Source: Alphaproteobacteria bacterium (GTDB taxonomy: Bacteria; Pseudomonadota; Alphaproteobacteria; Micropepsales; Micropepsaceae). Taken from it: a stretch of 64,000 nucleotides of DNA. The DNA lies in the NCBI GenBank assembly GCA_021325375.1, contig JAJPHG010000024.1, forward strand, positions 124,001-188,000, read 5' to 3'. Below the pieces are notes generated by a model, which saw only the letters and a list, made by a program, of their open reading frames with translations, was not told where the DNA came from and did not search any database. Made by a program: the position numbers and the translations under genes. Numbering within the stretch: the first letter of the stretch is position 1; each line of letters begins with the position of its first letter. This document shows positions 38,201-50,977 of the stretch, one piece after another.

Positions 38201-39193
38201 GACCAGATGCGCGGACGGGCGCAGCACCCCGTCGACGCTCCAGGTCTGCGGATAGGTGTCCTTCGTCGCGGTCTCCACGCCGGGCATGATCTGGCACGAC
38301 GCGCAACGCAGATCGCCGCCGAACCAGCCCACGACGAGAGACACCGCGCCCAAATTCGGCGCCAGCGCCTGCAACTCGTCGAGCGAGGCGTCGATGTCGG
38401 CCTCGCTCGCGGAATTGTGCGCGTTCTGCACCAGCGTCGTTCCGTCGCCGTCATCGGCGGTGATCACCGTGCTCGCATAGACGAACTCGCCCGCGCCCGG
38501 GATCAGCGCCACGCCGGCAAGCGTGTTCTCCAAAGACTGCGGATCGGCGGCCGAGAGGCTGCGGATCACCTCGAACTGCAATTGCGGGATGCGGTTGCCG
38601 AACTGCGCCAGAGGCATGTCCTCGAAGACGATGTAGCAAAGGCCGCGATAGGCGGGCGTGTTGCCGTCGCCCTCGATGTCCTCGATGCCCGGATCGAAGC
38701 CCTGCGCCTCGTCGCCGGGATAAAACCGCGTGGTGAAGGCGCCAAGGTCGATCAGATTGCCGTCGGCCCACACGCGCCCGATCTTGGTGACGACGCCGGC
38801 GCAAAGCCCCACCGCGAAGGAGATCGAATAGGCATAGTCGGTCTCGGTGACGGTGGTCCCGCCGCCGCCCTTGCCGCCGCCGCTCGTGGTGGTGGTCTGC
38901 GTCTCCTTATAGCGCGTCGCCCACAGAAGCTGTCCCGCGACGCGCAGCCGTCCGAAGACGCGCGGGATGGGCGCGCCTTCGGTCGAGGCCTGGATGTTGA
39001 CGTCGCTCAGGCGCGGGCCGCTGCGGCGGATATTGGTGCCCGGCATCAGCGCGCTGTCGATCTCCGCGCCGATCAGCGTGCCGATCGCGCCCCCAATCTG
39101 CGCGCCGGTGATCGTCGCGCCGAACAGCGAGAAGCCGTCGAACAACGCCGAGCCGATCGCGGACCCCGCGATGCTCAGGACAAGGGATGCCAT
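35237..39193 (-). CDS. GTA gp15-like megatron (baseplate/host-specificity protein)
   Basis: 1318 residues, the usual size. N-terminal hydrophobic and tail-hub segment (PRVFGRLRVAGQLLWATRY). From about residue 280 to 780 it carries a TIM-barrel glycoside-hydrolase-like domain (FLIGSELRGLTRVRD, VDNYLPLADWRDG, IWLCELGCPAIDKG). The C-terminal phage-tail domains end in a fibronectin-like region. In the R. capsulatus GTA this protein forms the tip of the tail and helps cross the envelope of the recipient. The stop lies in R2b. The 1654-residue open frame opposite it is an artefact of high GC. Confidence 0.92.
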   Translation of the reverse strand: MASLVLSIAGSAIGSALFDGFSLFGATITGAQIGGAIGTLIGAEIDSALMPGTNIRRSGPRLSDVNIQASTEGAPIPRVFGRLRVAGQLLWATRYKETQTTTTSGGGKGGGGTTVTETDYAYSISFAVGLCAGVVTKIGRVWADGNLIDLGAFTTRFYPGDEAQGFDPGIEDIEGDGNTPAYRGLCYIVFEDMPLAQFGNRIPQLQFEVIRSLSAADPQSLENTLAGVALIPGAGEFVYASTVITADDGDGTTLVQNAHNSASEADIDASLDELQALAPNLGAVSLVVGWFGGDLRCASCQIMPGVETATKDTYPQTWSVDGVLRPSAHLVSQVNGVPAYGGTPSDASVVEAIANLKTRGLAVMFCPFLFLDIASGNTLEDPYTGASGQGAYPWRGRITCDPAPGVSGSPDKTSAAATQVDAFFGSATSGDFSVDGTTVAWTGGADWGYRRMVLHYALLAEAAGGVDAFLIGSELRGLTRVRDSATTYPAVAALKTLAADVRAILGSGTKIGYAADWSEYNNHQTGDAAGALLFNLDPLWSDANIDFVGVDNYLPLADWRDGTAGLDYDAVHGPTSIYDPAYLTANIRGGENYDWYYASDADRDAQARTPITDGLGKPWVWRAKDFWNWWSNAHYDRPDGHESATPTAWVPQSKPIWLCELGCPAIDKGANRPNVFFDPKSSESALPYYSDGERDDLMQRVFLQAHLDFWSGAGNNPTVGGVRMVDTTRIFAWCWDARPFPFFPALANVWGDAADYQFGHWLNGRLGAVTLSDLVSALCADAAFTDADTANLSGLVTGFAVTDTMSPRDAIAPLGLAYHFDGVESQGLIRFVMRGRPNPSSYGESDLVIPDGDPSFGFSLERAQETDLPVGSRITYIDADADYRQAVAEARRLVGSSDRVASSSLPIVLDQGQAIGIGQSLLMDAWVMRETATFSLPPSALALDPTDEVWLTAGGRARRLRLGGIDDAGPRKIDAVATDPSVYEPITGPMRSPGAGQGAGGGPGRALVEFLDLPLLTGNEVPWAPHVCAFANPWPGAVMVLKSAGDSNYVLDTQLTLAASIGETIADFSSGPAWRWDEANALSIRLVNGACASLDDLSVLGGANALAIENADGQWEVLQYTSAMLTAPKCWTLTRLLRGQAGTESAMRNPVAAGARVVLLDRAPAQLSLKQDEYALAFNYLWGPQGKAISDPAYQGAALQFAGLGLRPLSPVHPRAVWQGGDLALSWIRRTRIGGDSWDQTDVPLAEDAEAYDVEILDGGGTVIRTLSVISPTLTYSSSDIASDFPSGLPSPFRFTVYQLSATYGRGVGETAEIFLSP

Positions 39194-39202
39194 GATGTTT
39201 TC

Positions 39203-40147
39203 CTAGGGCGTCACGCCGTATTTGGCGTATTCGTCCGCGATGCCGGCGTCGATCGCCTTGGCAGCGGCGACATCGGCGTCGCCGCCGGCGATGTCGCCGC
39301 TTTTTCGCTTCGCGACGCCGCGCATGAACAGCGAAGAGGGATAGGCGGATTTCTTGTCCAGCGCGACGTCATAGTCGGCGATGGCACTCTTGTAGTCGGC
39401 CATGCGGAAATAGACGAACCCGCGCGAGTCGAAGACCTCCGCGGTGGTATCGGTCTTCATCGCCTCGTTGCAGTCGGCAAGCGCGCCGGCGAGATCGCCA
39501 CCACGCGGCTTCGCGCGTTCGAAGCAGCGATTGTTGTAGTACGCGGCTTGGGGCTTCAGCGCGATGGCCTTGTCGAAATCCGCGATCGCGAGAGCGGTTT
39601 GGCCCATCTGCGCGTGGAGATTTCCGCGCGCGTTGTATGCCATCGCCAAATCTGGTTCGAGCTTGACCGCCGCATCCAACTCGGAAAGCGCGGCATCGAA
39701 CGTGCCTTGCGCCGCCAGGATCTTGCCACGCAGGAGATGCGCGGGGGCGAAATTCGGCTTCAAGCGCAGCACGTGCTCCGCGTCCGCGAGCGCCTCTTTC
39801 TGATGTCCGAGGTGCATATAGCCGTCACCACGCCCCATAAGCGCAGGCCAATTGTCCGGATCCGCGATCAGGGCCTGGCTGAAGCAATCCATCGCGGGAT
39901 TGAGCCGCCCTGCTTCGATATAGGCGACGCCCAGATCGAAGAGCAGCGCGAGCCGCTCTTTGGGATCTTTTTCGACCTGCAACGCCGCGCTGCACTGACG
40001 GATCTGCGTATCGGTATCCAACTTGGGATCGGTGCAAAACCGCTCCTCCGTACGCAATCCCAGCCAGTCCTGGGCCCGGGGATCGAGCGCAGAGGCGGGC
40101 GTCGCGGCCAGAACGGCAAAGCAGGCGACGAGCAGACGACGTTTCAT
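39203..40147 (-). CDS. Secreted TPR-repeat protein inside the GTA cluster
   Basis: 314 residues with a signal peptide (MKRRLLVACFAVLAATPASA). About seven tetratricopeptide units follow, e.g. NPAMDCFSQALIADPDNWPA, EALADAEHVLRLKPNFAPA and ALAIADFDKAIALKPQAA. It is not part of the standard GTA set. It sits between gp14 and gp15 with 8-9 nt gaps, so it is probably co-transcribed. It may be a cargo gene or an assembly aid in the periplasm. Confidence 0.8.
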   Translation of the reverse strand: MKRRLLVACFAVLAATPASALDPRAQDWLGLRTEERFCTDPKLDTDTQIRQCSAALQVEKDPKERLALLFDLGVAYIEAGRLNPAMDCFSQALIADPDNWPALMGRGDGYMHLGHQKEALADAEHVLRLKPNFAPAHLLRGKILAAQGTFDAALSELDAAVKLEPDLAMAYNARGNLHAQMGQTALAIADFDKAIALKPQAAYYNNRCFERAKPRGGDLAGALADCNEAMKTDTTAEVFDSRGFVYFRMADYKSAIADYDVALDKKSAYPSSLFMRGVAKRKSGDIAGGDADVAAAKAIDAGIADEYAKYGVTP

Positions 40148-40155
40148 GAGCCCTC

Positions 40156-40680
40156 CTACGCCTTAGAGCCTATATGAGACAGCCGGAACGCGAAAGCGAG
40201 CTTGCGCCGCCACAAAGGAGAAAGCGCTTCCTCGCTCACGCGCTTGTTCTGTCGCGCATGGATCAGCGTGAGCGCGCCGTTCCTCGCTGCGACGATGCCG
40301 CAATGTTTCGCGGGCCCGTGGCGCGTCATGCGGAAGAGCGCGATGTCGCCTGCGGCGATGCTTGCGGGAGCGATCTCCTTTAGATGGCGCGCGAGGCCGT
40401 CGCGCAATGTCTCCTCGCCCGTCGCCTCCGCCCAATCGGGGGAATAGGGCGCAAGCCGCTCGGGCTCCGCGCCGTGAAGCTCGCGCCACACGCCGCGCAG
40501 CAGCCCCAGGCAGTCGCAACCGGCGCCCTTCACGCTCGCCTGATGCTGGTAAGGCGTGCCGATCCAGGTGCGGGCGACGGCGACGATGTCGCCGGCGAAT
40601 GGCGAATGGCGAGTAGCGAATAGGGATTCATCGCTCCGGGACCATTCGCTATTCGCCATTCGCCATTCGCTAGTTCCCAT
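40156..40680 (-). CDS. GTA gp14-like NlpC/P60 peptidase
   Basis: 174 residues. Catalytic Cys in GAGCDCLGLLRG (Cys57), His in KHCGIVAARNG and a further His in LTLIHARQNKR. In the GTA this tail-tip peptidase cuts peptidoglycan during delivery. The first 29 residues are encoded by the R4a repeat (MGTSEWRMANSEW) and are not part of the fold; translation may begin at Met1 or Met8. Met1 overlaps the gp13 stop by 11 nt. Confidence 0.88.
   Translation of the reverse strand: MGTSEWRMANSEWSRSDESLFATRHSPFAGDIVAVARTWIGTPYQHQASVKGAGCDCLGLLRGVWRELHGAEPERLAPYSPDWAEATGEETLRDGLARHLKEIAPASIAAGDIALFRMTRHGPAKHCGIVAARNGALTLIHARQNKRVSEEALSPLWRRKLAFAFRLSHIGSKA
40594..40672. repeat. R4a: hairpin of degenerate 7-mers at the gp13/gp14 junction
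   Basis: Tandem variants of GCGAATG, GCGAATA and GCGAGTA followed by their inverted series (ATTCGCT, ATTCGCC), giving a long imperfect hairpin. It is translated as the N-terminus of gp14. Confidence 0.9.
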
Positions 40681-41563
40681 ATCGGCTTCCCCCGTCCAAA
40701 GGCTGGCTGCTTGTGGGGTACGAGACGACGGCGTCGTTGCCGGGCATGTAGGGGAAGCCGCGGAAATTGAGCGCGTTGTCGAACTTCGCCTTGCAGGTCG
40801 AGAACTGCTTGTCGCAGCCCGCCGTCACCGCGAGAGCGTCGCCAACCGCGACCGTTTCGCTCATCGCCTGCCACAGCTCGATCGAGACGGACGTCGCCGC
40901 CACACCGTGACGCTTAACCTCCATGCCCCGCGCGGCATTCGCGCCCGTCGAGAAGACGAGCTTGCCGCCGCTGAACCAGCCGTCGGCATAGGCGTCCAGG
41001 CCCGTGACCGAGAAGCGCCGAGCGTCGATGACGCTCGCCACCGTTCCCGTGCCCTTGAAGGTCGGACCCGCGAGCACGACCGTGCAGCGCGCGTCGCCGA
41101 GATCGGCGTCGCAGGAATAGCCGTAGGCGCGGCCGACGCTCTGGTTCAGCTTGTGCGCCAGGCCGCGCACCTCGGCCTGGAACGCGGTCTTGCCGCGGCT
41201 CACCTGGCCGAGATTGCCCTTGCGCATCAGCACGCGCTGATCGGGCGTCCCCCAGTTGACGCGCCAGATCTCGATATCGGCGTCGTCATAGAGTCCCGCC
41301 GCGAGATCGTGCTCGTTCAGCGAAGCCGACGACAAGGCGCCCGCGACGGTGAGGTTGTCGACCGCGAGCCCCAATGTCGACTGCACCTCGCTCGCCGTGA
41401 ATCCGCTCGCCGCTTCGTAGGTCACGCCGTCGAAGACGACCGGCGCGTCGTGATCGGTGAAACCCTGCACGAGCCCGTCGCCGCGCGCGACCTTCCAGCA
41501 CCAGCACAAGGTCGTGGTTCCGGAGGAGAGATGGTCCTGCAGGCCGGGGGGAAGGGTTTTCAT
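40670..41563 (-). CDS. GTA gp13-like tail hub protein (DUF2163)
   Basis: 297 residues from the ATG at 41563 (MKTLPPGLQDHLSSGTTTLC). DUF2163 landmarks are LCWCWKVARGDG, FTDHDAPVVFDG, SCDADLGDARC and the C-terminal CDKQFSTCKAKFDNALNFRG. The Cys-rich C-terminus binds an iron-sulfur cluster in studied GTA hubs. The reading frame stays open upstream into gp12 sequence, which is not used. R1d lies just upstream. Confidence 0.9.
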   Translation of the reverse strand: MKTLPPGLQDHLSSGTTTLCWCWKVARGDGLVQGFTDHDAPVVFDGVTYEAASGFTASEVQSTLGLAVDNLTVAGALSSASLNEHDLAAGLYDDADIEIWRVNWGTPDQRVLMRKGNLGQVSRGKTAFQAEVRGLAHKLNQSVGRAYGYSCDADLGDARCTVVLAGPTFKGTGTVASVIDARRFSVTGLDAYADGWFSGGKLVFSTGANAARGMEVKRHGVAATSVSIELWQAMSETVAVGDALAVTAGCDKQFSTCKAKFDNALNFRGFPYMPGNDAVVSYPTSSQPLDGGSRYGN

Positions 41564-41574
41564 GGTGATGCTCC

Positions 41575-41707
41575 ACCCTCCCCTTGAGGGAGGGTCGATA
41601 ATTTGCTGAGCGCAGCGAGGCAAATTTCGGGGAGCGGTGCTCGTCTTGGCGAAAACCCCTCCCCGAAAAATGCTTCGCATTTTTCGACCCTCCCTCAAGG
41701 GGAGGGT
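41575..41707. repeat. R1d palindromic element between gp12 and gp13
   Basis: Fourth R1 copy, 133 bp, the only one inside the GTA cluster. Arms ACCCTCCCCTTGAGGGAGGG and its complement are intact. It lies 5 bp from the gp12 stop and 11 bp from the gp13 start. Confidence 0.9.
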
Positions 41708-41712
41708 TCTAT

Positions 41713-42339
41713 TCACACCAATATCTCCACGATCGGGATGCTCGGGCACTCGCCCGCCGCGAAGCTCGCCAGGTTGACGACGAGCGCGTCGGTGTCGAAG
41801 CGCACCGCCGTGTCGAAGGCATAGCCGGCGGTGATCGCGGCACCCGATGCGGGCGCCGTCGTGAAGGTGACGATCCCCGTCGTCGCATCGACCGACACCG
41901 GGCCGGAGACCTCGATGCCGCCGACCGCGATGCGCACGCTGCCGTCCACGGGCTTGACGATCCTGCGCACCCAGCTCGACGGCCCGGACGCATAGGTCTT
42001 CACGAGCTGGAACGCGCGCGTCGTCCCGTCGCCGGTCGCGATCGCCTGGTCGGCGGGCGATATCGCGCCGCCCGGCGCGCAGGACTGGAAATCGGTGAAG
42101 TCCTTGAAGCGGAAGCCGACGAGGCGCCCGAGCCGCGCCTCGAAGAACGCGACGACCGCCTGCAGGTCGTCGAGCGTCTTGACGCCCGAGCCGACGTCGT
42201 AGCGCCGCCGCGAGTTCGCCCACACCGCGTTGCGCTCCTCATAGCCCGAGCCGAGCGCGACGATCTCGGTCTTGCGCTCCGGCCCGCCCGTGGAGCCGAA
42301 CGCGATCGCGGTGGGGAAACGGATTTCGTGGAAGGTCAT
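41713..42339 (-). CDS. GTA gp12-like distal tail protein (DUF2460)
   Basis: 208 residues. DUF2460 landmarks: FHEIRFPTAIAFGSTGGPER, ALGSGYEERNAVWANSRRRY and GRLVGFRFKDFTDFQS. The protein forms the distal tail ring that joins the tube to the hub. TGA at 41715-41713. Confidence 0.92.
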   Translation of the reverse strand: MTFHEIRFPTAIAFGSTGGPERKTEIVALGSGYEERNAVWANSRRRYDVGSGVKTLDDLQAVVAFFEARLGRLVGFRFKDFTDFQSCAPGGAISPADQAIATGDGTTRAFQLVKTYASGPSSWVRRIVKPVDGSVRIAVGGIEVSGPVSVDATTGIVTFTTAPASGAAITAGYAFDTAVRFDTDALVVNLASFAAGECPSIPIVEILV

Positions 42340-42347
42340 GGTTGCCT

Positions 42348-42441
42348 GCGAATGGCGAATGGCGAATAGCGAGTAGTGAGTAGTGAGTAGTGAGTAGCTT
42401 GACCGAGTCCTCTATTCGCTACTCGCTATTCGCTATTCGCT
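42348..42441. repeat. R4b: 7-mer hairpin between gp11 and gp12
   Basis: Runs of GCGAATG/GCGAATA, then GAGTAGT repeated four times, then the inverted series CTATTCGCTACTCGC. It fills almost all of the 104-bp gap. Confidence 0.9.
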
Positions 42442-42443
42442 TT

Positions 42444-42974
42444 TCACATGTTTCTCTGCCCCCGCGCCAGCGCGCGCGACATCATCGCGGCGATCTGGCT
42501 GCGGGATTTGAGGAAGCTCGAGGCGTCCTGGGTCTGCACGTTGACGACGATCTGCGGGCCCCGCGCTTTAAGATCGGCGTTCGAGGTGACGGTGCCAGCG
42601 CCCGCGGGCGTGAACAGCTCGGGGCCCTGCTCGCCGACGAGATAGGTCTCGCCCGCGCTCACCGGGCCGCCCGAGGCGAGCGCGCCGCCGATGGGAAGCA
42701 GCGAGCCCGCGATCGAGCTCACCACGCCCTCGATCGGCTTGACGATGAACTGGCTGATCGCGATGCGCTCGAAATCGGCGAGGATCGCGCTCACCAGCTG
42801 GTCCATCGACAGCTTCCCCGAGACGGCCGCGCGCGCGATGGTGTTGGCGACGGCGTCGAAGCTCTTCGTCACCGCGCCCTCGATGGCCGAGGTCGCATCC
42901 ATCACCGGACCGGTCGCGAAGTCGTTGAGCGCCTTCGCCGCGGCGTCCAGCGCCGAGTTCGGATCGTCAGCCAT
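42444..42974 (-). CDS. GTA gp11-like tail tape measure protein (short)
   Basis: 176 residues. The C-terminal part has the tape-measure signature found in lambda-like and GTA tails (SQFIVKPIEGVVSSIAGSLLP, GETYLVGEQGPELFTPAGAG, then QIVVNVQTQD). The N-terminal helices are short, which predicts a short tail. ATG at 42974 overlaps the end of the chaperone frame by 8 nt. Confidence 0.87.
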   Translation of the reverse strand: MADDPNSALDAAAKALNDFATGPVMDATSAIEGAVTKSFDAVANTIARAAVSGKLSMDQLVSAILADFERIAISQFIVKPIEGVVSSIAGSLLPIGGALASGGPVSAGETYLVGEQGPELFTPAGAGTVTSNADLKARGPQIVVNVQTQDASSFLKSRSQIAAMMSRALARGQRNM

Positions 42975-43176
42975 CGGGAAACTCCTTCATCATGCGGTCG
43001 AATTCGCCACGTGCCAGCGGCGATGCGCGCCGCGGGAGCCGCGTGAGCATCGCGCGCCACTCGGGCAACGACAGCGCCCAGAACGTCGTGGGCGAAAGCG
43101 CCAGCGCGCCGAGCCCTAGGGCGAGGACGCCGCTCCAGCGAAAGGGCCGGACGCCTCGCCGCCGCCCTCGCCTTTC
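42967..43176 (-). CDS. Tail assembly chaperone domain (gp10.1-like), read by -1 frameshift from gp10
   Basis: 69 residues with the conserved phage TAC motif (RPFRWSGVLALGLG, LSPTTFWALSLPEWRAM, ending EFDRMMKEFPDG). No ATG, GTG or TTG in this frame would include the conserved start. The -1 slippery heptamer G-GGT-TTG lies at 43182-43176 in the gp10 frame and leads directly into this frame. The predicted fusion is 96 gp10 residues plus 69. I infer programmed frameshifting as in lambda G/GT; a frameshift error in the sequence is the alternative. Confidence 0.7.
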   Translation of the reverse strand, partial: ERRGRRRGVRPFRWSGVLALGLGALALSPTTFWALSLPEWRAMLTRLPRRASPLARGEFDRMMKEFPDG

Positions 43177-43463
43177 AAACCCGCCGCCTCGAACGCATCG
43201 CGCACCGCCGCCACCAGCGCGCCGAGGTCGCAGGCAAGCGCGAGCGCGTCCTGCGCCGTCATCTCGTGCCCTCCGCCGCGCAACAGCGCCGCGGCCACGA
43301 TCGCCAGATCGCTCGCGCGTGCCTGCGCCAGGCGTTTCGATATCTCGCCGAGATTGGCAAGTCCGAGCCCGTCCTCGATCTCGGCCAGCGCGCCGAGCGT
43401 GAGCAGCAGGCAATAGGTCTTCCCGCCGGCGACAAGCTCCGCTTCGCCGCGAATCCTGTTCAT
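43116..43463 (-). CDS. GTA gp10-like tail protein
   Basis: 115 residues of the GTA gp10 family (GGKTYCLLLTLGALAEIEDGL, LRGGGHEMTAQDA). It is the counterpart of lambda gpG in gene order: after the tail tube gene, before the tape measure. The C-terminal 20 residues past the slippery site are Gly/Ala-rich and look unstructured. Its start is divergent from the small plus-strand gene at 43478. Confidence 0.85.
   Translation of the reverse strand: MNRIRGEAELVAGGKTYCLLLTLGALAEIEDGLGLANLGEISKRLAQARASDLAIVAAALLRGGGHEMTAQDALALACDLGALVAAVRDAFEAAGLKGEGGGEASGPFAGAASSP
43176..43182 (-). promoter_or_regulatory. Putative -1 ribosomal frameshift site GGGTTTG
   Basis: In gp10 frame the heptamer reads G GGT TTG, the canonical X-XXY-YYZ form. 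The codon after slippage is GAA, which enters the chaperone frame. GC-rich downstream sequence could supply a stimulatory fold. Confidence 0.6.
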
Positions 43464-43477
43464 GATAGGGTTTCCTT

Positions 43478-43702
43478 ATGGACGATCCGGAACCGGTCTA
43501 TCCGCGGACGCGCCTTTTGATGTTCCGCATCTTCGCGGCGCTGACTGCTTTCGCCGCTGCCGCCGTCGCCGTTGCGGAGCTCACGCTCGGAACCGCGCGC
43601 GGCTGGTCGTGGCTGGATTGGTCGGGATTTGTGCTTATCGCGGCGTTGTGCGCCTATCTGATCGGTCAGATGGCCGCGCATTGGGACAGTCCTACGCCGT
43701 AA
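43478..43702 (+). CDS. Small membrane protein on the opposite strand within the GTA cluster
   Basis: 74 residues, two hydrophobic helices (FRIFAALTAFAAAAVAVAEL and SGFVLIAALCAYLIGQMA). ATG at 43478 with a GATAGGG site upstream. It is read against all GTA genes, divergent from gp10 and overlapping the 3' end of gp9 by 11 nt. Its own promoter must lie in the 14-bp gap or within gp10. No function recognised; possible cargo gene. Confidence 0.6.
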   Translation: MDDPEPVYPRTRLLMFRIFAALTAFAAAAVAVAELTLGTARGWSWLDWSGFVLIAALCAYLIGQMAAHWDSPTP

Positions 43703-44102
43703 AGCTCAGCGCGCCCGCGGACGCCAGCGACATCGAGATCTTCACTTCGCCGTCATACGGCCCCTCATACTGCAGCGACGTGACCTTGAACGGGCCCGAG
43801 ACCGTGCCGAAGCTCGGGATCACGATCTGCCAGTTGGAAAGCGCCTGGTCGAAGAACGCCGCGCGGATCGCCGCGTCGGAGGCCGCGTCCTTGAACACGC
43901 CCGAGCCCGACACGCTCGCGGACTTGACGCCTGAGGCGAGCAGCTCGCGCCACTCATCCGTCGAGTCCGAGTTGGTCACGTCGATCGTCTGCGCGTTGAA
44001 CGCCAGCGTCGTCGCGCGCAGCCCGGCGGCGGTGGTGAACGTCTCCGGCGAGCCGCCGTCGCCGATCTTGATGAGCAAATCCTTGCCGCGTTGTGCGGTC
44101 AT
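43692..44102 (-). CDS. GTA gp9-like tail tube protein
   Basis: 136 residues of the major tail protein family (RGKDLLIKIGDGGSPETFTT, FNAQTIDVTNSDSTDEWREL, ending YDGEVKISMSLASAGALSF). It forms the tail tube. The order gp8-gp9-gp10 is as in R. capsulatus. Confidence 0.92.
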   Translation of the reverse strand: MTAQRGKDLLIKIGDGGSPETFTTAAGLRATTLAFNAQTIDVTNSDSTDEWRELLASGVKSASVSGSGVFKDAASDAAIRAAFFDQALSNWQIVIPSFGTVSGPFKVTSLQYEGPYDGEVKISMSLASAGALSFTA

Positions 44103-44118
44103 GTGGGTCTCCTTTGTG

Positions 44119-44193
44119 GGCGAATGGCGAGTAGCGAATGGCGAATAGGGAATCGCCTTCTTTCCATTCGCTATTCGCCACTCGCTATTCGCT
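44119..44193. repeat. R4c: 7-mer hairpin between gp8 and gp9
   Basis: GCGAATG, GCGAGTA, GCGAATG, GCGAATA followed by the inverted series. The right end reaches into the last codons of gp8 (EESE*). Confidence 0.9.
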
Positions 44194-44595
44194 TTCTTCC
44201 ATCACCGCCCGGAACTTCAGCGTCGCGCGGGTCGTCTCGCCGTCGCTTTCGCGGGTGAAGGTCGTGGCGAGATGGCGGATATCGATCAGCGTCTCGCCGC
44301 TGACCGCGAGCACGGCGCCGTCGAGCGCGTCCCGCACGGCGGCGGCGGCGAGCTTGGCTTCCTTGCGGCCGTCGGCGCGCGACCAGACATGGATCTCGAG
44401 CATGTGCTCGCTGCCCGTCTCGGTCGCGGTGCTCCAATCGCTCATCGTGTCGTCGCCGATGACGCAATAGGGAAACGCCGTGCCGCGCGGCGGGGTATCG
44501 AAGACGCGCGGCGGATCGCCGAACGCGTCCTTGACTTCGTCGTTCGCGCAGAGCTCGGCGAACACGGCCTGCTGCAATGCCCAGCTCGCGCTCAT
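44185..44595 (-). CDS. GTA gp8-like tail terminator (DUF3168)
   Basis: 136 residues from the ATG at 44595 (MSASWALQQAVFAELCAND). DUF3168 landmarks FPYCVIGDDT and HVWSRADGRKEAKLAAAAVRD are present. It caps the tail tube at the head end. The start overlaps the gp7 stop by 4 nt. Upstream open sequence in this frame lies over gp7 and is not used. Confidence 0.9.
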   Translation of the reverse strand: MSASWALQQAVFAELCANDEVKDAFGDPPRVFDTPPRGTAFPYCVIGDDTMSDWSTATETGSEHMLEIHVWSRADGRKEAKLAAAAVRDALDGAVLAVSGETLIDIRHLATTFTRESDGETTRATLKFRAVMEESE

Positions 44596-44906
44596 GGCAG
44601 TTCCTCGCACAGAAGGGTCATCAGCGCGGCGCCCGGGCCTTCGTCGATGACGGTGTGGATGCGGAAGATTCGCGGGCCGACGCCCACGCGCATGCCCGCC
44701 GCGACGTCGGTGCGGCGGCGCAGCACGATCTTGTGGCGCACGCGCGCCTCCAGCCGGTCGGGACCGAACGCGTCGCTGCCGCCCAAGGGCGTGAGCGCGA
44801 TCCACACCGAGGCGAACGCTTCCCAGGCGTCGCCGAACCCGCCGCCGCCGTCGGGCGTCAGCGTGTTCGCGAGCAATTGCGCGCGCTGGTTCAGGGAGCC
44901 GATCAT
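44592..44906 (-). CDS. GTA gp7-like head-tail stopper/adaptor
   Basis: 104 residues (MIGSLNQRAQLLANTLTPDG, FASVWIALTPLGG, VGPRIFRIHTVID), the SPP1 gp16-like head closure family. Coupled to gp8 by a 4-nt overlap. Confidence 0.88.
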   Translation of the reverse strand: MIGSLNQRAQLLANTLTPDGGGGFGDAWEAFASVWIALTPLGGSDAFGPDRLEARVRHKIVLRRRTDVAAGMRVGVGPRIFRIHTVIDEGPGAALMTLLCEELP

Positions 44907-44914
44907 TCAAAAAT

Positions 44915-44980
44915 GCGAATGGCGAATAGCGAATGGCGAATAGAAAATTCCCTATTCGCTATTCGCCACTCGCTATTCGC
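44915..44980. repeat. R4d: 7-mer hairpin between gp6 and gp7
   Basis: GCGAATG GCGAATA GCGAATG GCGAATA then the complement series CTATTCG CTATTCG CCACTCG CTATTCG. It fills the 80-bp gap between gp6 and gp7. Confidence 0.9.
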
Positions 44981-44986
44981 CCCTTT

Positions 44987-45550
44987 CTACAATTTGAAAA
45001 TCCGGTACGGCGCGAGCAGCGCCTGCGCCGGCGGCGCGATCTCTTCCGGGCCGTCGCCGCGGTTGACGTAGAGCTCGGCCAGGATCTCGAGCACGCCCCG
45101 GCGCAGCGGCTCGGGCACGTCGCCCGCCTCGCCGCCATAGCCCGCGCCGAACGCGATCGCGACCGCGTTGCGCCGGCGCAGGTCGAAGCCCGGCGAGGTC
45201 AGGCAGTCGAACACGACGCGGCCCGGCGCCGACACGGTATCGACGAAATAGCGCGCGGGATCGACCGTGTTCGCCGTGTTGTCGCGCGCATAGGCGCTCA
45301 CCGCGCTCACGCTCTGCAGCGGCGGCAGCGGCACCTGCGCGATGCCGTCGCCCGGCCAGCAATCGAGCCACAGCACCCAGCTTTGGGTGACGAAAGCGCG
45401 GCCCGTATGCCATTCCGCGCGCGCCCTGGCCGCGGTGATCAGCGTGGTGATGAGCGCGTCGTCGTCGGCCGTGTCGACCTTGAGCTGCGCCTTCGCCTCG
45501 TCGAGCGTGACCGGCTCGAGAGAGGGCGGGGTGATGAGTTGGAGGGGCAT
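44987..45550 (-). CDS. GTA gp6-like head-tail connector
   Basis: 187 residues from the ATG at 45550 (MPLQLITPPSLEPVTLDEAK). The family is the phage conserved head-tail connector (AQLKVDTADDDALITTLITA, VAIAFGAGYGGEAGDVPEPL). A longer frame from 45616 would add 22 residues encoded by R4e, which I consider non-native. Confidence 0.9.
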   Translation of the reverse strand: MPLQLITPPSLEPVTLDEAKAQLKVDTADDDALITTLITAARARAEWHTGRAFVTQSWVLWLDCWPGDGIAQVPLPPLQSVSAVSAYARDNTANTVDPARYFVDTVSAPGRVVFDCLTSPGFDLRRRNAVAIAFGAGYGGEAGDVPEPLRRGVLEILAELYVNRGDGPEEIAPPAQALLAPYRIFKL

Positions 45551-45568
45551 TTTTGCTCCGCAAAAAAA

Positions 45569-45636
45569 GGCGAATGGCGAGTAGCGAATGGCGAATTGGG
45601 GTTCCCTATTCGCCATTCGCCATTTCGCTATTCGCT
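45569..45636. repeat. R4e: 7-mer hairpin between gp5 and gp6
   Basis: GCGAATG GCGAGTA GCGAATG GCGAATT, a short loop, then the inverted series. It touches the gp5 stop at 45635. Confidence 0.9.
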
Positions 45637-46873
45637 AACTGGCAGCAAACTTCATCAGCTTGATCGCCTCGAAGTTCTGCACGCCGCCGCCGACGCGCTT
45701 GGTCGTGTAGAACAGCACGTAGGGCTTGGCGCTGTAGGGATCGCGCAGCACGCGGATGCCGATGCGGTCGACGACGAGATAGCCGCGGGCGAAATCGCCG
45801 AACGCGATCGAATAGGCGTTCGCGGCGATGTCGGGCATGTCCTCGACTTCCGTCACCGGATAGCCGAACAAGGTGGCCGGCTGGTCGGCGCTCATCGCCG
45901 GCTGCCAGATATAGTTGCCGGTCGAGTCCTTGAACTTGCGCACCGTGCTCTCGGTCTTGCGGTTCATCACCCAGCGGCCGTTGGCGCGGTAGCCCTGTTT
46001 CGGCGCATAGGCGAGATCGAGCAGCGCATCCGACGGATTGGAGGACGCGAACGCGCCCGCCGCCCCGCTGGCGATGTAGCCGAGACTGCCCCACGCCCAC
46101 GATGCATCCGCCACCGTGGTGTAATGCAGGAACCCGGTCGGCTTGTTGGTGCCGTCGCCGTTGACGAACGCCGCGCCCTCCTGCTCGGCGAAGACGATCT
46201 GCACCTCGGACGCCAGCCACTGCTCGATGTCGACCTGGCTGTCGTCGAGAAGCGTCTGCGTCGCGGCCGGCATCGCGTAGAGCTCCATCGCGGGGAAGTC
46301 AATGGCCGCCAGCGTCGGCGTGTTCGTCTGGCTGATCGCGTCGGTCTCGCCCACCCAGCCGGTGGCCGCGCCCGCCGTGGTGATCGGCTTGCGGTAGACG
46401 TTGGCGCCGATCTGCCTGACCGTCGCGATGGCGCGGATCGGCGAGGCTTTCGCGAGCACGCGGTCGATCGTCGTCTCGATCTCCAGCGGCACGGTATAGC
46501 CGCCGTCGGGGTTCGAGCCCGCCGACAACGCCTTGACCTCCAGCGCGTCGAGCCCGCCCGCGTCGCCGCGGCGGACATAGCGGTCGAACGCCTGCTTGCG
46601 CTCGCGCGTCTGCGGCTGGACCGTACGCTCGGTCCCGAGCGCGGGACGCTGGGCGGCGAGCGTCAGTTCGTCGAGCACGCGCTTCTGCTCGTCGAGCGCG
46701 CGGTTGATGCGCTCGACCTTCTCGTCGGCCACGACGTCGGTGGAGCGCTTCTCCAGCGCCGCGAGCCGCTCGTCGTTCGCGTCCTTGAAGCTGTCGAAGG
46801 CGCGCAGGAAATCGTCGAACGCCTCCCTGATCTCGCGGCTCGCGCCTGCGTCGGCTTTTGTTTCCATATCCAT
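45635..46873 (-). CDS. GTA gp5-like major capsid protein (HK97 fold)
   Basis: 412 residues. The N-terminal 100 or so residues are a coiled-coil scaffold region (EIREAFDDFLRAFDSFKDAN, RSTDVVADEKVERIN). The HK97-fold capsid starts near VKALSAGSNPDGGYTVPLEI, where the protease is expected to cut. GFLHYTTVADASWAWG and IGIRVLRDPYSAKPYVLFYT are typical. It is the most abundant GTA protein and is bracketed by R4e and R4f. Confidence 0.94.
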   Translation of the reverse strand: MDMETKADAGASREIREAFDDFLRAFDSFKDANDERLAALEKRSTDVVADEKVERINRALDEQKRVLDELTLAAQRPALGTERTVQPQTRERKQAFDRYVRRGDAGGLDALEVKALSAGSNPDGGYTVPLEIETTIDRVLAKASPIRAIATVRQIGANVYRKPITTAGAATGWVGETDAISQTNTPTLAAIDFPAMELYAMPAATQTLLDDSQVDIEQWLASEVQIVFAEQEGAAFVNGDGTNKPTGFLHYTTVADASWAWGSLGYIASGAAGAFASSNPSDALLDLAYAPKQGYRANGRWVMNRKTESTVRKFKDSTGNYIWQPAMSADQPATLFGYPVTEVEDMPDIAANAYSIAFGDFARGYLVVDRIGIRVLRDPYSAKPYVLFYTTKRVGGGVQNFEAIKLMKFAAS

Positions 46874-46893
46874 TGGTGTTCTCCTTGGGGTTG

Positions 46894-46971
46894 GGCGAAT
46901 AGCGAATAGCGAGTAGCGAGTAGAATTCGCGCCCGCCTTCCCTATTCGCTATTCACTATTCGCTACTCGCT
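46894..46971. repeat. R4f: 7-mer hairpin between gp4 and gp5
   Basis: GCGAATA GCGAATA GCGAGTA GCGAGTA, a 19-base loop, then the inverted series. The right side is translated as the last residues (VANSE) of gp4. Confidence 0.9.
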
Positions 46972-47494
46972 TCGCCGCCCGCGCGATGCTTCCCGCGAGC
47001 GCGTTCTTCTCTCCCAGCGCCGTCACGCCGCTGCCCGCGAGCAGCGGGAAGGTGACGATGGAGATCTCCCACAGCTCGACCTCTTCGAGGCGGCGCAGTC
47101 CGGTCTTCGCGTCGCGCCGCGCGCGCACCGTGCGGAAGCCGATGGAGAGGCCGTCCAGCGCGCCGTCGGCGATCAGCGCGCGCACCTCGCGCGCGCGCAC
47201 GACGTCGAGGCTCAGCCGCCCGCGCACATAGAGGCCCTTGCCGTCCTCGCGGATCGTCTCCCACACGCCGATCGGCTCGTGCGCGAAGTGCTGATAGAGC
47301 ATGCGCACATCGCGCGCCGGCCGCTTGCGCAGCGACGAAGCGAACGCGCCGGGGGCCACGACGTCGCCCGCGCCGTCCGGCACGCCGAACAGCGAGGCAT
47401 GGCCCTCGAACACCTCGCGCCCGAGACCTTCGAGACGCGCAGGCGCGCTCGCGCGCGCGAGCGCGCGCCGCGCGTACTTCACGGTGGGTCGCAT
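46949..47494 (-). CDS. GTA gp4-like prohead protease (HK97 family)
   Basis: 181 residues from the ATG at 47494 (MRPTVKYARRALARASAP). Catalytic His in MLYQHFAHEPIGVW and Ser in GALDGLSIGFRT match the U35/S78 prohead protease family. It removes the gp5 scaffold. The C-terminal residues come from R4f. Confidence 0.9.
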   Translation of the reverse strand: MRPTVKYARRALARASAPARLEGLGREVFEGHASLFGVPDGAGDVVAPGAFASSLRKRPARDVRMLYQHFAHEPIGVWETIREDGKGLYVRGRLSLDVVRAREVRALIADGALDGLSIGFRTVRARRDAKTGLRRLEEVELWEISIVTFPLLAGSGVTALGEKNALAGSIARAAKRVANSE

Positions 47495-47498
47495 TGAT

Positions 47499-48200
47499 CT
47501 ATTTCTTTTCTTGGGCCGGAAGGCTCGTCTCAACCAGCGCATCGAGCGCGGCGAGCGAGGATTTTGTTTTCTTGCCGCAATATTCCGCCATCGCATCGCC
47601 GATGTCGACGAGGGCGCCGGCTTCGCCGCCCGGCGACCACGCCTGCCCGGCCTTGCCGTAGCTGTAGAAATGATATTCCACGCCGTCGGCGCCGACGGTC
47701 TCGATCCCGCTCGGGTCCGGCGCGTCGTAGTGCGTCTTCAGCAGCGCGCGTGTCCAGATATCGACCAGACGTTCGGCGCGCGGCTTGTCCAGCGCGATCG
47801 CGCAACGCGCGACCTTCACGTCGTGCCAATCGGCCGGAAGCGTCTTGCGCAGCTCCGCCACGGTCTTGGCATCGCCATCCGCGACGGCGCCGGCCAGGGC
47901 ATCATAGTCATGCAGACCCACCGCCGGGGCCACGACGAGGATCGCATAGGCGCCGCCATCGTCCCGCTTGAGAGCAACGGCATATTCCGGCCCGAAAGCC
48001 GGGAGCACCGTCATGCGGGCGACGACGTTGCCGGTGTAAGCCTCCTTCAGCACGCCGACGACGATGCTGTCGTAGTCCCGCCACGCACCGCCGTCGCTCA
48101 GGATCGAATCCTCGGGCCGGAGGTGGTCCTCGGCACGCGCGGCCGTCGCGAACAGGAGCGCGGCGGCCGCCGCCGACGCACGCGCAGCACGGGACATCAT
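47499..48200 (-). CDS. Exported hypothetical protein in the GTA cluster
   Basis: 233 residues from the ATG at 48200, which opens a signal peptide (MMSRAARASAAAAALLFATA, mature start near EDHLRPED). The mature protein is alpha/beta, with two Cys residues (ARCAIALD, AEYCGKK). No family recognised. It ends 4 nt before gp4 and is not a standard GTA gene; together with the two genes upstream it forms a three-gene insert between gp3 and gp4. Confidence 0.65.
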   Translation of the reverse strand: MMSRAARASAAAAALLFATAARAEDHLRPEDSILSDGGAWRDYDSIVVGVLKEAYTGNVVARMTVLPAFGPEYAVALKRDDGGAYAILVVAPAVGLHDYDALAGAVADGDAKTVAELRKTLPADWHDVKVARCAIALDKPRAERLVDIWTRALLKTHYDAPDPSGIETVGADGVEYHFYSYGKAGQAWSPGGEAGALVDIGDAMAEYCGKKTKSSLAALDALVETSLPAQEKK

Positions 48201-48243
48201 CGCAAGTCTTCCTCCCTCACCCAGGAACGATCCTACCACCTCC

Positions 48244-48510
48244 TCAAGGAGATGGCTGGCCCTTCTCGCGATCCAGCTTGGTCTCGATACGGTCCAGCGT
48301 TTCCTTCATCGTGCGCATGTCTTCCTCGAGCACCGCGACGCGCTCGATCGCGTTCTGGTCGGCGCTCGTCGCGCGCTCCAGCGCCGCGATGCGCTCGGCA
48401 GCCGACCCCGCCCAGAACAGCGCGCCGGCCGTCTGCAACAAAAAAGCCGCCACGAGGGCGGCCGGAAGCTTCTTGTCCAGCACCGGCTGGACCGCGTCGG
48501 CGAGGGTCAT
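48244..48510 (-). CDS. Small membrane-anchored coiled-coil protein (gp3.5 position)
   Basis: 88 residues: one hydrophobic helix (LPAALVAAFLLQTAGALFWA) then a coiled coil (ERIAALERATSADQNAIERV, MKETLDRIETKLD). Many GTA clusters have a small gene of this type between portal and protease; its role is unknown. The alternative is a spanin- or holin-like helper. Confidence 0.65.
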   Translation of the reverse strand: MTLADAVQPVLDKKLPAALVAAFLLQTAGALFWAGSAAERIAALERATSADQNAIERVAVLEEDMRTMKETLDRIETKLDREKGQPSP

Positions 48511-48553
48511 GGCGGCTTACCGAGACGTTCGAGTTTCATGAGAAGGATCCGCC

Positions 48554-49540
48554 TCACGGCGACTTCGGCAGCGCTGCGTCGGCCGGCGTCGCGTACAGCG
48601 TCTTTTCCTTGAACGCGAAATAGAGATGCATCTTGCTCAATTCCGCGTCGCGCAGGCTGAGGTCGGCCGTTCCGAAACAGACCTTCCCATCGAAGGCCTG
48701 GATGGGGCGATACGGCTTGCATTCCGGCCCCTCCTTCTTGACGATGAACACGGCGGGATTGGAGATCTCGACGCCTTCCAGGGCGAGCAGCTTGAACGGA
48801 TAGCGGTAGAGGGTCTGCGTCTTGTCGTGCAGCGTCTGCATGCCGGGCGAATTCTCGTCGAGACCGAAGATGCGGTGGACCACGTTCATGTCCATCTGCG
48901 CCGTGCCGGCGGAAACGTGGAAATCGACATGAACGCGCTCGCCGTCCAGCCGCATCTGGAAGGTGAAATGGCCGGAAGGGTCCTTTTCGAACGGCACTTG
49001 CGCATAGCGGTCGGCCCAATAGACGACCTGGCCGCTGCAATGATCCTGCGAGAACAGCTTCATGCGCGAATTCTTGAGATCGAGCTCGACGTCGAAATTG
49101 GCGAGCAGGTCCATTCCGGCCAGTCCGGTGACCTGCGGATCGCCGCCGCTCAGCGAACCGTCGACGCGGAACATGTCGAACTTCCGGGCGCGGGCCAGAC
49201 CGACGCTGAATTCGTCGACCGAGACGGCCCGCTTGATCTTGACGTCGTCCACCTCCGGCTCGATCTGGGAGGGCAGCGAATGCGACGCGTATTTCTGGGC
49301 GTCCGCGAAGCTGCCCAGGATCGCCGAGAACGGGCTGTTCAGCCCGACCTCGAACCAGCGCTCCTGGCCGCCGATCGTGATCGGAAACAGATAGTCGCCG
49401 CCCGTGCTCTTCTTCAACGTGAGATCGGCAAGCTGCTTGAGCCTGCAGTCCTCGTCCGCGCGGGCCGGCGCGGCAACAGCGAGCAATGCGGCCGCTGCAA
49501 TCGCGATTCTCATCCGCCTTCTCCCCTTCCCCGTGCTCAT
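48554..49540 (-). CDS. Degenerate retropepsin-like periplasmic protein
   Basis: 328 residues with a signal peptide after a basic start (MRIAIAAAALLAVAAPARAD). The fold landmark GLAGMDLLANFDVELDLKNS is typical of bacterial retropepsin-like aspartic proteases. The active-site D-[TS]-G expected near residue 65 reads FEVGLNS, and the second site reads VDFHVSAGT, so catalysis is doubtful. ATG overlaps the portal stop by 4 nt. Not a standard GTA gene. Confidence 0.65.
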   Translation of the reverse strand: MSTGKGRRRMRIAIAAAALLAVAAPARADEDCRLKQLADLTLKKSTGGDYLFPITIGGQERWFEVGLNSPFSAILGSFADAQKYASHSLPSQIEPEVDDVKIKRAVSVDEFSVGLARARKFDMFRVDGSLSGGDPQVTGLAGMDLLANFDVELDLKNSRMKLFSQDHCSGQVVYWADRYAQVPFEKDPSGHFTFQMRLDGERVHVDFHVSAGTAQMDMNVVHRIFGLDENSPGMQTLHDKTQTLYRYPFKLLALEGVEISNPAVFIVKKEGPECKPYRPIQAFDGKVCFGTADLSLRDAELSKMHLYFAFKEKTLYATPADAALPKSP

Positions 49541-50721
49541 AGTGTATCCCCACCCGCGAGCGGAGAGTAGCCCGCCGCCTGGCGCTTCTCGTTCAGGGTC
49601 AGGAACGTCGCGGCGTTGAGCTTGTCCCAGGAGCTTTCGCGGTCGGCCGCGAGCGCGTCCACCGCGTCGGCGTCGTAGCTGAGCCGCAAGCCTTCGCCGA
49701 AACGGGGCGCGAGGCAGCGCGTGAGCTGGGCCGCGGTGCGGCCGACGAGCGGCATCACCGTCTGGCGCCAGAACGACAGGTTCGCCTCGCGATAGTTCGA
49801 GAAGGTGTTGTCGCCGGGGATGCCGAGCAGCATCGGCGGCACCCCGAAGGCCAGCGCGATCTCGCGCGCCGCGCCGTCGCGGCTGTTGGCGAAATCGAGA
49901 TCGGCGGGCGCGTAGCTCATCGACTTCCAGTCGAGCCCGCCTTCGAGCACCATCGGGCGCCCCGCATTGCCGCTGCCTTGATAAGCGTCCTCCAATTCAT
50001 GTTTGAGCCGCTGGAACTGCTCGTCGGTGAGCCCCGGCGCGCCGTCCGGGCCCTTGTAGACGAGCGCGCCGGAAGGACGCGCGGCGTTGTCGAGCAGCGC
50101 CTTGGTCCAGTCGCCGCCGGCATTGTGCACGTCGATGGCGCGCGCCGCCGCCTCGATGGGCGAGAGCCCGTAGAGATCGTCGAGCGGATGGAACAGGGCT
50201 GCGTGCATCACCGGAAGGAAGCCCGTGCCGCGCTCGGCCGCGAGGGTCGTGGCCTGGCCCGCGACCGTATAGGTGTAGGCGACCGGCCGTCCGTCGGCGC
50301 CGGGCACGACGCGCACGCGGTCGGGCCGCAGCACGTGCAGCTCGCGCACCTCGCCCGAGGCGGTGAGCGCCTCGAGATAGGAATTGCCCGCGCATTGGAG
50401 GAACGCGTACCAGCGCTCGAACAGCGCCTTGCCGTCCTCGAGCGGGTTGGGGCTTGAGAGCAGCGCGAGCAGCGGATGGGCCTCGATCTCGCGCGGCCCC
50501 TCATAGAGCAGCCAGGGGACCGATGAGGCGGCCTCGGCGATCATGCGCACGCAGCGATAGGCGATCGCGTTGCGCATCACGCCTTCGCGCGCCAGGCTCG
50601 CATAGTCGCGCGCCCCCCATGAGGCCCGCCCCGCGAGAGACAAGGCGACGAGGGGGGGCATCGCCTTTTTCTCCGGGGGACGCGCCGAAGATCTCGCGGG
50701 GCGGAACAGGTTCTGGAACAT
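49537..50721 (-). CDS. GTA gp3-like portal protein
   Basis: 394 residues of the HK97 portal family (VMRNAIAYRCVRMIAEAASS, WYAFLQCAGNSYLEAL, GVPPMLLGIPGDNTFSNYRE). It forms the DNA-passage ring at one capsid vertex. Start at 50721, 27 bp from R3c; the stop overlaps the next gene. Confidence 0.93.
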   Translation of the reverse strand: MFQNLFRPARSSARPPEKKAMPPLVALSLAGRASWGARDYASLAREGVMRNAIAYRCVRMIAEAASSVPWLLYEGPREIEAHPLLALLSSPNPLEDGKALFERWYAFLQCAGNSYLEALTASGEVRELHVLRPDRVRVVPGADGRPVAYTYTVAGQATTLAAERGTGFLPVMHAALFHPLDDLYGLSPIEAAARAIDVHNAGGDWTKALLDNAARPSGALVYKGPDGAPGLTDEQFQRLKHELEDAYQGSGNAGRPMVLEGGLDWKSMSYAPADLDFANSRDGAAREIALAFGVPPMLLGIPGDNTFSNYREANLSFWRQTVMPLVGRTAAQLTRCLAPRFGEGLRLSYDADAVDALAADRESSWDKLNAATFLTLNEKRQAAGYSPLAGGDTL

Positions 50722-50747
50722 GGGAAGTTTCCCTCGACAAAATCATC

Positions 50748-50965
50748 TGTCATGGCCCGCGAGTTCGTAGCGACAGCGTACGAACGGGCCATCCAGTTGG
50801 GTTCTGCAGGTTTAAAAAAAAGGACTCACGCGGAGGCGCGGAGTACGCGGAGGTTCTTTTTCATTCCGCGAACTCCGCGTCTCCGCGTGAAATTCTTCGA
50901 AATTGGCTCGATGTCACCTGGGTGGCCCGCGTCCATACGCTGTCGCTATGGACCGGGCCACGACA
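50748..50965. repeat. R3c nested palindrome between gp2 and gp3
   Basis: 218 bp. Arms begin TGTCATGGCCCGCGAG and end GGGCCACGACA, with an extra small palindrome GTAGCGACAGCGTAC in each arm, absent from R3a/R3b. The inner palindrome is CACGCGGAGGCGCGGAG / CTCCGCGTCTCCGCGTG. It separates the packaging genes from the head-tail genes. Confidence 0.9.
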
Positions 50966-50977
50966 CTCTTTGTGCTT

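Follow-up and report, generated by a model that had tools for sequence, protein, structure and literature searches.

The window (the whole stretch of DNA analysed, 64,000 nucleotides) contains a GTA structural gene cluster on the minus strand, in which six gene junctions hold a hairpin built of heptamer repeats (E1 to E6) and one holds a palindrome of a different type. The gp numbers follow the gene order of the Rhodobacter GTA. The features are as follows.

35237..52372, minus strand: GTA structural cluster, large terminase to gp15 (Pfam and ORFs), the 17.1-kb region of the enrichment test
40595..40670, unstranded: E1, heptamer hairpin, gp13/gp14; on the gene strand it begins with the G of TAG, the stop codon of gp13; z -9.17
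41575..41707, unstranded: different palindrome, ACCCTCCCCTTGAGGGAGGGTCGA type, gp12/gp13 junction
42348..42440, unstranded: E2, heptamer hairpin, gp11/gp12; 3 nt behind the gp11 stop; three extra GTGAGTA units; z -7.08
44120..44192, unstranded: E3, heptamer hairpin, gp8/gp9; contains the gp8 stop (44185-44187); z -8.95
44915..44980, unstranded: E4, heptamer hairpin, gp6/gp7; lies 6 nt past the gp6 stop, and on the gene strand a T-run comes after it; z -9.80
45570..45635, unstranded: E5, heptamer hairpin, gp5/gp6; immediately downstream of the major capsid gene, with whose stop codon it has the G in common; z -6.31, and -6.4 in a second computation
45635..46873, minus strand: gp5, major capsid gene, HK97 type (PF05065, 316 bits)
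46895..46970, unstranded: E6, heptamer hairpin, gp4/gp5; contains the gp4 stop (46949-46951); z -6.26

Each hairpin is a run of GCGAATG, GCGAATA or GCGAGTA units followed by the inverted run, as seen by sequence inspection and pattern search. The arms comprise about four GCGARTR heptamers each (28 nt), in the order GCGARTR–loop–YAYTCGC, and heptamer positions 5 and 7, which are A or G, vary independently between the two arms. The RNA fold z-scores range from -6.26 to -9.80. All six elements lie at the upstream stop codon or at most 6 bases from it, and four of them share (E1, E5) or contain (E3, E6) the stop codon of the gene before. Among the six, a T-run on the gene strand follows E4 and E5 only; E5 is followed by CTTTTTTT on that strand. 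A search with two heptamer units, one mismatch allowed, gives 35 matches in the window, where 0.69 are expected and none of 100 shuffles reaches as high a number, and all 35 fall at the six hairpin sites. The preliminary description of this DNA, which had placed six hairpins at gp13/14, gp11/12, gp8/9, gp6/7, gp5/6 and gp4/5 with no copy in the rest of the window, is thus borne out by the pattern search and by the Pfam matches and ORFs from which the junctions were assigned. At the gathering score, Rfam has no match in the window, rRNA included; sub-threshold scores of two microRNA hairpin models and of whalefall-1 were taken as chance.

The same description had the hairpins confined to GTA junctions, which fails in the genome-wide search that it had itself proposed as a refutation test. 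Across the genome, which amounts to 4.77 Mb in 45 contigs, the two-unit pattern has 120 matches, and the backward control has none. We count 26 elements, 6 in the GTA cluster and 20 elsewhere; 100 of the 120 matches were listed, and the other 20 equal the number of exact GTA matches remaining. Twenty sites outside GTA were examined, namely 19 of the 20 elements counted there and one degenerate array; they lie between co-directional (14), convergent (5) or divergent (1) gene pairs, and each has a gene, called by a simple custom caller, at most 11 nt away on one or both sides. Despite this dispersal, a tie of the family to GTA is supported: the 17.1-kb cluster contains 6 of the 26 elements (P about 8e-10), and among the 10 genomes of the genus in which the family occurs along with a GTA capsid match, 7 have copies between GTA genes.

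In this family, the arm order is the same in 55 of 55 arm pairs, and four units per arm are usual, with the number variable between arms. A T-run of at least 4 on either side accompanies 8 of 25 elements, so that the pattern of an intrinsic terminator, a GC-rich stem with a T-run after it, is seen in a minority. No covariation of the arms was found: those of the same element show 4.41 differences of 28 and those of different elements 4.05 (p 0.91), so that no selection for exact pairing is visible. Target-site duplications of at least 4 nt occur in 1 of 25 elements (shuffled mean 1.6, largest 6), which is no excess; the elements lack this mark of a DDE-type transposon or MITE.

One element has a long form. 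Its arms are 411 nt apart in the nuoC/nuoD junction and enclose the sole PF05635 match of the genome (136 bits), a four-helix-bundle gene for the 23S rRNA intervening-sequence protein, which is thus present in 1 of the 26 elements and in none of E1 to E6. Two other genomes (G061 and G317) have the same arrangement beside nuoC and nuoD. Framing by heptamers is general among PF05635 genes. Arrays with a period of seven (lag 7) adjoin them at 30 of 34 loci and at 26 of 37 new loci, against 0 of 68 and 1 of 73 controls; in the second set L422 and L396 are counted once, and near-relatives, including two near-duplicate pairs, are kept. The inverted partner of the array is found in the gene's own downstream flank at 34 of 71 loci and in 23 of 710 foreign flanks. 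The lag-7 threshold is missed by 15 of the 71 loci, 6 of which have octamer versions. A 400-kb background with 0 matches at lag 7 gives no independent rate, since it was picked when the element places were known. In G459, G463, G477 and G666, long and gene-less forms occur with one common heptamer, GTAGGCA. Three of 40 PF05635 loci lie inside 23S rRNA. In cyanobacterial plasmids, PF05635 genes are framed by heptamers, and in two plasmids such genes occupy the cas6/cas4 and cmr2/cmr3 junctions; 200 kb of Trichormus plasmid C contain no short hairpin of the gene-less form. Eleven of the 12 hairpin-bearing relatives in the genus have no PF05635 match, and in the twelfth (G028) the match lies in 23S rRNA with another heptamer, so the protein is dispensable now.

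Given this format, the long form with PF05635 and the general heptamer framing of such genes, we take E1 to E6 for members, lacking the gene, of a dispersed family of the intervening-sequence (IVS) kind that sits in mRNA junctions, a reading that we consider probable, though well short of certain. An element of the family has two inverted arms, each about 28 nt long and made up of about four degenerate heptamers, which flank either a short loop or a PF05635 (S23p/IVP) gene; the family would have spread through the genome by a presumed mobility. Copies would persist immediately downstream of stop codons, the places at which they are least harmful and can provide a new stop, TAG being contained in GCGAATAG. 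In the GTA transcript, each element should form a long stem, an expected substrate of RNase III, so that the message would be cut or stalled between cistrons while each cistron kept its own start. The hairpins thus probably act in RNA, as cutting or stalling points. The GTA operon would accumulate them, presumably because anti-termination, which has been shown in Caulobacter, makes its transcription tolerant of hairpins, and because a hairpin may be kept anyway at one or two junctions, chiefly the one behind the capsid gene. Several results weigh against this explanation: the lack of excess target-site duplications, the relatives without a PF05635 match, the arms that match their partners no better than those of other elements, the rarity of heptamer hairpins in GTA clusters drawn by capsid protein, the PF05635 loci below the lag-7 threshold and the negative result in Trichormus plasmid C.

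Irrespective of its sequence, a hairpin is often retained downstream of the capsid gene in GTA clusters; here that position is taken by E5. A strong fold is found behind the capsid gene at 26 of 46 loci and at 33 of 74 new loci (near-relatives kept); for other genes the corresponding figures are 9 of 176 and 8 of 259. Within the genus, such folds follow the capsid gene in 18 of 21 cases, the small gene that precedes the protease in 13 of 21 and other genes in 21 of 144. More than one palindrome family is found at the same junctions: in relatives, ACCCTCCCCTTGAGGGAGGGTCGA-type palindromes occupy GTA junctions where others hold heptamer hairpins. These results, together with the T-runs behind E4 and E5, speak for stem-loops that are selected in the GTA operon for regulation: as partial terminators, or by stabilising mRNA ends, they would set protein ratios, and the repeat family would be no more than their local source. 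However, relatives mostly lack a strong hairpin at four to five of the six junctions, the close relatives G010, G029, G033 and G354 have no match to the pattern at all, a T-tract follows the capsid gene at only 16 of 50 and 15 of 74 loci, and T-runs are as infrequent in the family as noted above. It is a serious alternative, though less likely than not; for E5 it can hold together with an IVS-kind origin. The earlier proposal that the hairpins set the ratio of capsid and tail proteins gains support at gp5/6, where members of the class often retain a hairpin although its sequence is not conserved; at the other five junctions, relatives are mostly without a strong one. The capsid-gene hairpin recalls the terminator behind the capsid gene of T7, and its retention by place makes GTA stoichiometry testable.

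The heptamer hairpins themselves are not a general GTA trait, being present in only 2 of 78 IMG/VR and 1 of 44 genome_contigs loci among GTA clusters drawn by their capsid protein; matches in L040, with 1015 N in 5037 bases, were left out of this survey. Among the matches listed, GTA clusters make up 21 of the 80 IMG/VR loci with the pattern, a share not used as enrichment because that collection was chosen for virus-like contigs and the matches listed are a part. A single inherited insertion at gp4/5 was also considered; by eye, the carriers G000, G034, G026 and G007 with G019 each have a nearest relative without an element there.

Growth of the heptamers by slippage and inversion wherever extra DNA is tolerated, as in a little-constrained GTA, would dispense with mobility. 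The number of units per arm does vary, the cluster here also contains another palindrome and a small opposite-strand ORF, and the GTA clusters of G007 and L034 are broken; yet one heptamer at 26 sites of one genome, with a fixed arm order and usually four units per arm, is hard to obtain by local slippage, and we regard this course as unlikely. Like the elements here, the enterobacterial REP and BIME elements are palindromes scattered between cistrons and downstream of stop codons, and movement by a RAYT/Y1 transposase might be envisaged on that likeness. To our knowledge, heptamer arms are not a REP format, and PF01797 has no match in this genome while 5 of 14 control genomes have one, so that this origin is disfavoured and very improbable. 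Marks of recombination between GTA modules, which the preliminary description had also suggested, fit the placement at gene borders and nothing else, and are scarcely credible, as most copies lie outside GTA and those inside it resemble one another no more than randomly drawn sets do (p 0.31); by the same result, local duplication inside GTA is not supported, although E3 and E4 are close to each other (2 differences).

The IVS-kind explanation of E1 to E6 extends, tentatively, to a wider one, which is conceivable rather than probable: inverted repeats of degenerate heptamers, with or without a four-helix-bundle gene between them, may form a single class of mobile element, common to proteobacteria and cyanobacteria, whose insertions fall where RNA cutting is harmless. 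Such places would be rRNA helices, for the classical IVSs, and operon junctions (cas, nuo and conjugation), for the IVP genes; the gene-less form would be the inter-cistron hairpins, those of GTA here and perhaps the cyanobacterial STRRs. The PF05635 protein would have helped the arms to spread, which would account for the long and short forms of any one genome having the same heptamer although the types differ from genome to genome, and GTA operons would gather elements since anti-terminated transcription tolerates hairpins. In the open-licence literature (subscription journals were outside the scope), we found no paper on heptamer arms of PF05635 elements in mRNA junctions. This explanation joins 23S rRNA IVSs, PF05635 genes in operons such as cas, 7-bp-repeat hairpins and GTA hairpins, so far described apart, and makes testable both the cutting of mRNA by such elements, as in rRNA, and the role of the four-helix-bundle protein.

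Four known systems, compared here from excerpts of the cited papers, have features in common with these elements. In Caulobacter crescentus, terGTA is a strong terminator in the GTA cluster that GafZ lets RNA polymerase pass (PMC11150451). It too is inverted-repeat DNA inside a GTA cluster, but it is made up of three direct repeats, GC-rich and 150 bp long, that follow the first gene. The 23S_rRNA_IVP (PF05635) genes in cas loci (PMC3936711) share the operon-junction placement, while the arms seen here are not described in the excerpt of that paper. The cyanobacterial STRRs are 7-bp repeats able to form an intergenic hairpin, also between hupS and hupL (PMC2670836). They resemble the present elements in format, as 7-bp tandem repeats that form a hairpin between genes; the phylum and the sequence are other, and the excerpt describes no tie to PF05635. 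The 23S rRNA IVS of Coxiella burnetii has a 28-bp stem, tandem heptamers and an S23p gene, and is excised by RNase III (PMC4990558). E1 to E6 lie between GTA genes, in a window without an Rfam rRNA, and thus in mRNA junctions and not inside a 23S rRNA gene; 25 of the 26 elements are gene-less, their heptamer sequence is other, and excision by RNase III, as in Coxiella, is for them a prediction. What the two have in common is the inverted terminal stem of about 28 bp, the tandem heptamers and, in the long form, the PF05635-type gene that the stem encloses.

The six hairpins lie at window positions 40595-46970; in each, GCGARTR heptamers form the first arm, which is followed across a loop by the inverted arm. 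Their host, recognized by Pfam matches, is the structural cluster of a gene transfer agent (GTA) on the minus strand, taken as 35237-52372, in which gp5 is the major capsid gene; the gp numbers follow the gene order of the Rhodobacter GTA. The preliminary description had placed six hairpins of these units at named GTA junctions, and there they are, with all 35 two-unit matches of the window (at most one mismatch) at these sites and an average of 0.69 in shuffles.

E1, 40595-40670, minus-strand cluster: hairpin at gp13/14; first base is the G of the gp13 stop codon
E2, 42348-42440, minus-strand cluster: hairpin at gp11/12; begins 3 bases past the gp11 stop
E3, 44120-44192, minus-strand cluster: hairpin at gp8/9; contains the TAG that ends gp8
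E4, 44915-44980, minus-strand cluster: hairpin at gp6/7; begins 6 bases past the gp6 stop
E5, 45570-45635, minus-strand cluster: hairpin at gp5/6; first base is the G of the capsid-gene stop codon
E6, 46895-46970, minus-strand cluster: hairpin at gp4/5; contains the TAG that ends gp4

As gene-strand RNA, the six fold with energies of -43.4 to -54 kcal/mol (z -6.26 to -9.80). At 40156-40680, E1 is inside the gp14 frame if the only upstream ATG in the ORF list is the start; judged from this frame, E1 may be translated into the start of gp14. Between gp9 and gp10 (43464-43704) sits an insert of about 230 bp with a small plus-strand ORF, opposite to the operon direction, which is membrane-like by eye and has only a sub-threshold Pfam match.

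The hairpins had also been described as confined to GTA junctions, which does not hold for the genome of the window (G000). A genome-wide two-unit search gives 120 matches, against 0 in the backward control, and 20 of the 26 elements counted lie elsewhere. Even so, the 6 GTA elements compare with 0.09 expected for 17.1 kb of 4766 kb (P for 6 or more, 8e-10). Non-GTA junctions were surveyed with a simple purpose-made gene caller at 19 of the 20 other elements (C34 was left out) and at one degenerate array. These 20 junctions are co-directional (14), convergent (5) or divergent (1). At every site at least one flank has a called gene no more than 11 nt away, and on the other side the next gene is 4 to 159 nt off or overlaps.

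Arm anatomy rests on 17 elements of G000 in which both four-unit arms could be read (E1-E4, E6 and 12 others), leaving out E5, which has an extra base in its second arm, and elements with other unit counts or frames. Heptamer positions 1, 2, 3, 4 and 6 hardly vary (94 to 100% constant), while position 5 is A in 105 and G in 30 of 136 units and position 7 is A in 84 and G in 50. Over 28 positions, the arms of the same element differ at 4.41, against 4.05 for arms taken from separate elements (permutation p 0.91), so the A/G choices in one arm do not track those in its partner. Nor do the GTA elements of this set, five in number, form a close-knit group (p 0.31).

Among relatives in the genus, the three-unit pattern is present in 12 of 36 genomes, plus G061, and in the class sample in 7 of 385, including G000 and G061. 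The pattern and a capsid match occur together in ten genomes of the genus. Elements lie between GTA genes in seven of them (six in G000, two each in G007, G019, G026 and G061, one each in G028 and G034) and in none of the other three (G011, G021, G022). The gp4/5 junction is occupied in G000, G007, G019, G026 and G034, and the junction before gp4 in G007, G019, G026 and G028. In the capsid tree, judged by eye, carriers are scattered among non-carriers. A pattern scan of IMG/VR gives at least 80 loci, at least 21 of which read as GTA clusters (three or more genes); they show that the placement turns up again in other lineages, but do not measure how often. One such cluster (L103) has arrays at four successive junctions, and in another (L142) they flank the capsid gene on both sides. 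Where opposite arrays are neighbours in the IMG/VR loci, the GCGARTR arm comes first in 55 of 55 cases; 80 arrays have no partner under the strict rule. Loci drawn by capsid protein contain heptamer hairpins in 2 of 78 cases (IMG/VR) and 1 of 44 usable cases (genome_contigs), with GCGARTR arrays in none of 45 genome_contigs loci. Two GTA clusters of relatives are broken: in G007 (L216 5998-9565) the capsid gene breaks off at residue 239 and gives way to gp15 sequence, and at L034 14315-16330 gp13 halts midway, again before gp15 sequence.

GTA junctions of relatives also hold other palindromes. One junction has a heptamer hairpin in G028 and a CCCTCCCC palindrome in its close relative G029. In the window, a dispersed-looking ACCCTCCCCTTGAGGGAGGGT-type palindrome fills gp12/13 (41575-41707), with similar ones at GTA junctions of relatives. 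Fold z was computed on 130 nt behind each gene in the class sets, where strong means below -3, and on 110 nt in the genus. It is below -3 behind 26 of 46 capsid genes versus 9 of 176 other genes (duplicates removed), and in a second set, from IMG/VR, behind 33 of 74 versus 8 of 259. T-tracts come next at a minority of these capsid-gene sites (16 of 50 and 15 of 74). Within the genus, strong folds stand behind 18 of 21 capsid genes versus 21 of 144 others; the small gene before the protease has one in 13 of 21, the window being among the eight without. These findings indicate that it is often the position of a hairpin that is retained or re-acquired, and E5 is the G000 version of it.

In a long form of the element (L240 5037-5503, G000), the arms are 411 nt apart and enclose a gene of PF05635 (S23p/IVP, a four-helix bundle), the only such match of the genome, at the nuoC/nuoD junction. 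The same arrangement occurs in G061 and in G317, from another family; these long forms (L240, L266, L267) span two families, and common descent, transfer or site preference may account for their recurrence. The encoded protein is similar to XCC0516 (PDB 2gsc; E 4.8e-24) and scores 25.6 bits against the bAvd family, under the cut-off of 40.

Heptamer arrays of other sequence accompany four more PF05635 loci, two of them inside 23S rRNA, where 3 of 40 PF05635 loci lie. The lag-7 test takes the best self-match over 28 positions, sought up to about 260 nt from the gene (19 or more, either side), with stretches 425-700 nt away as controls and the repeats L422 (= L396), L432 and L433 left out. Arrays are found at 30 of 34 loci (control 0/68) and at 26 of 37 new loci (control 1/73). 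Lag 8 marks two loci in the first set and four in the new one (octamer-framed L381, L395, L399, L403, L430 and L434), other lags 0 to 1, except lag 14 (2 x 7), and nine loci have neither period. The inverted partner of the upstream array is in its own downstream flank at 34 of 71 loci versus 23 of 710 foreign flanks. Seven of nine plasmid loci, picked from the 20 matches listed (33 records), reach 19 or more at lag 7 in both flanks; the Stanieria locus is weaker (15 and 18) and the Picosynechococcus locus has lag 8. The cas6/cas4 gap of Anabaena sp. 90 (L490) and the cmr2/cmr3 gap of Picosynechococcus PCC 7003 (L495) each contain a PF05635 gene flanked by heptamer or octamer arms. In G459, G463, G477 and G666 the heptamer GTAGGCA flanks a PF05635 gene and also builds hairpins that lack the gene (loops 43 to 85). 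In the comparison of overlapping loci, 11 of 30 had no partner. The 200 kb of Trichormus plasmid C hold a gene-bearing pair and a pair with a 204-nt loop, and no short hairpin was found there.

The format of the elements, their dispersal and placement, the GTA excess, the tie to PF05635 and the hairpin between the capsid and tail genes are established. By analogy with intervening sequence (IVS) stems in rRNA, RNase III would cut the stems in the GTA message. Insertions just behind stop codons would be those that survive, and the GTA might tolerate stems through transcription able to read past terminators, as in Caulobacter, where GafZ allows RNA polymerase past terGTA (PMC11150451). Counted against this mechanism are the rarity of heptamer hairpins in GTA clusters outside the genus, the missing PF05635 match in 11 of 12 hairpin-bearing genus relatives, the lack of arm covariation in the 17-element set of G000, and the absence of any excess of target-site duplications at the elements.

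In the open-licence literature, no report was found of the common heptamer frame, of gene-less members in mRNA junctions or of the concentration in GTA operons. The Coxiella IVS is reported to have a terminal stem of 28 bp and tandem GACAGAT heptamers, to carry an S23p gene and to be excised by RNase III (PMC4990558). Such S23p IVSs, IVP genes in cas loci (PMC3936711) and 7-bp-repeat hairpins in cyanobacteria (PMC2670836) are already known, but separately.
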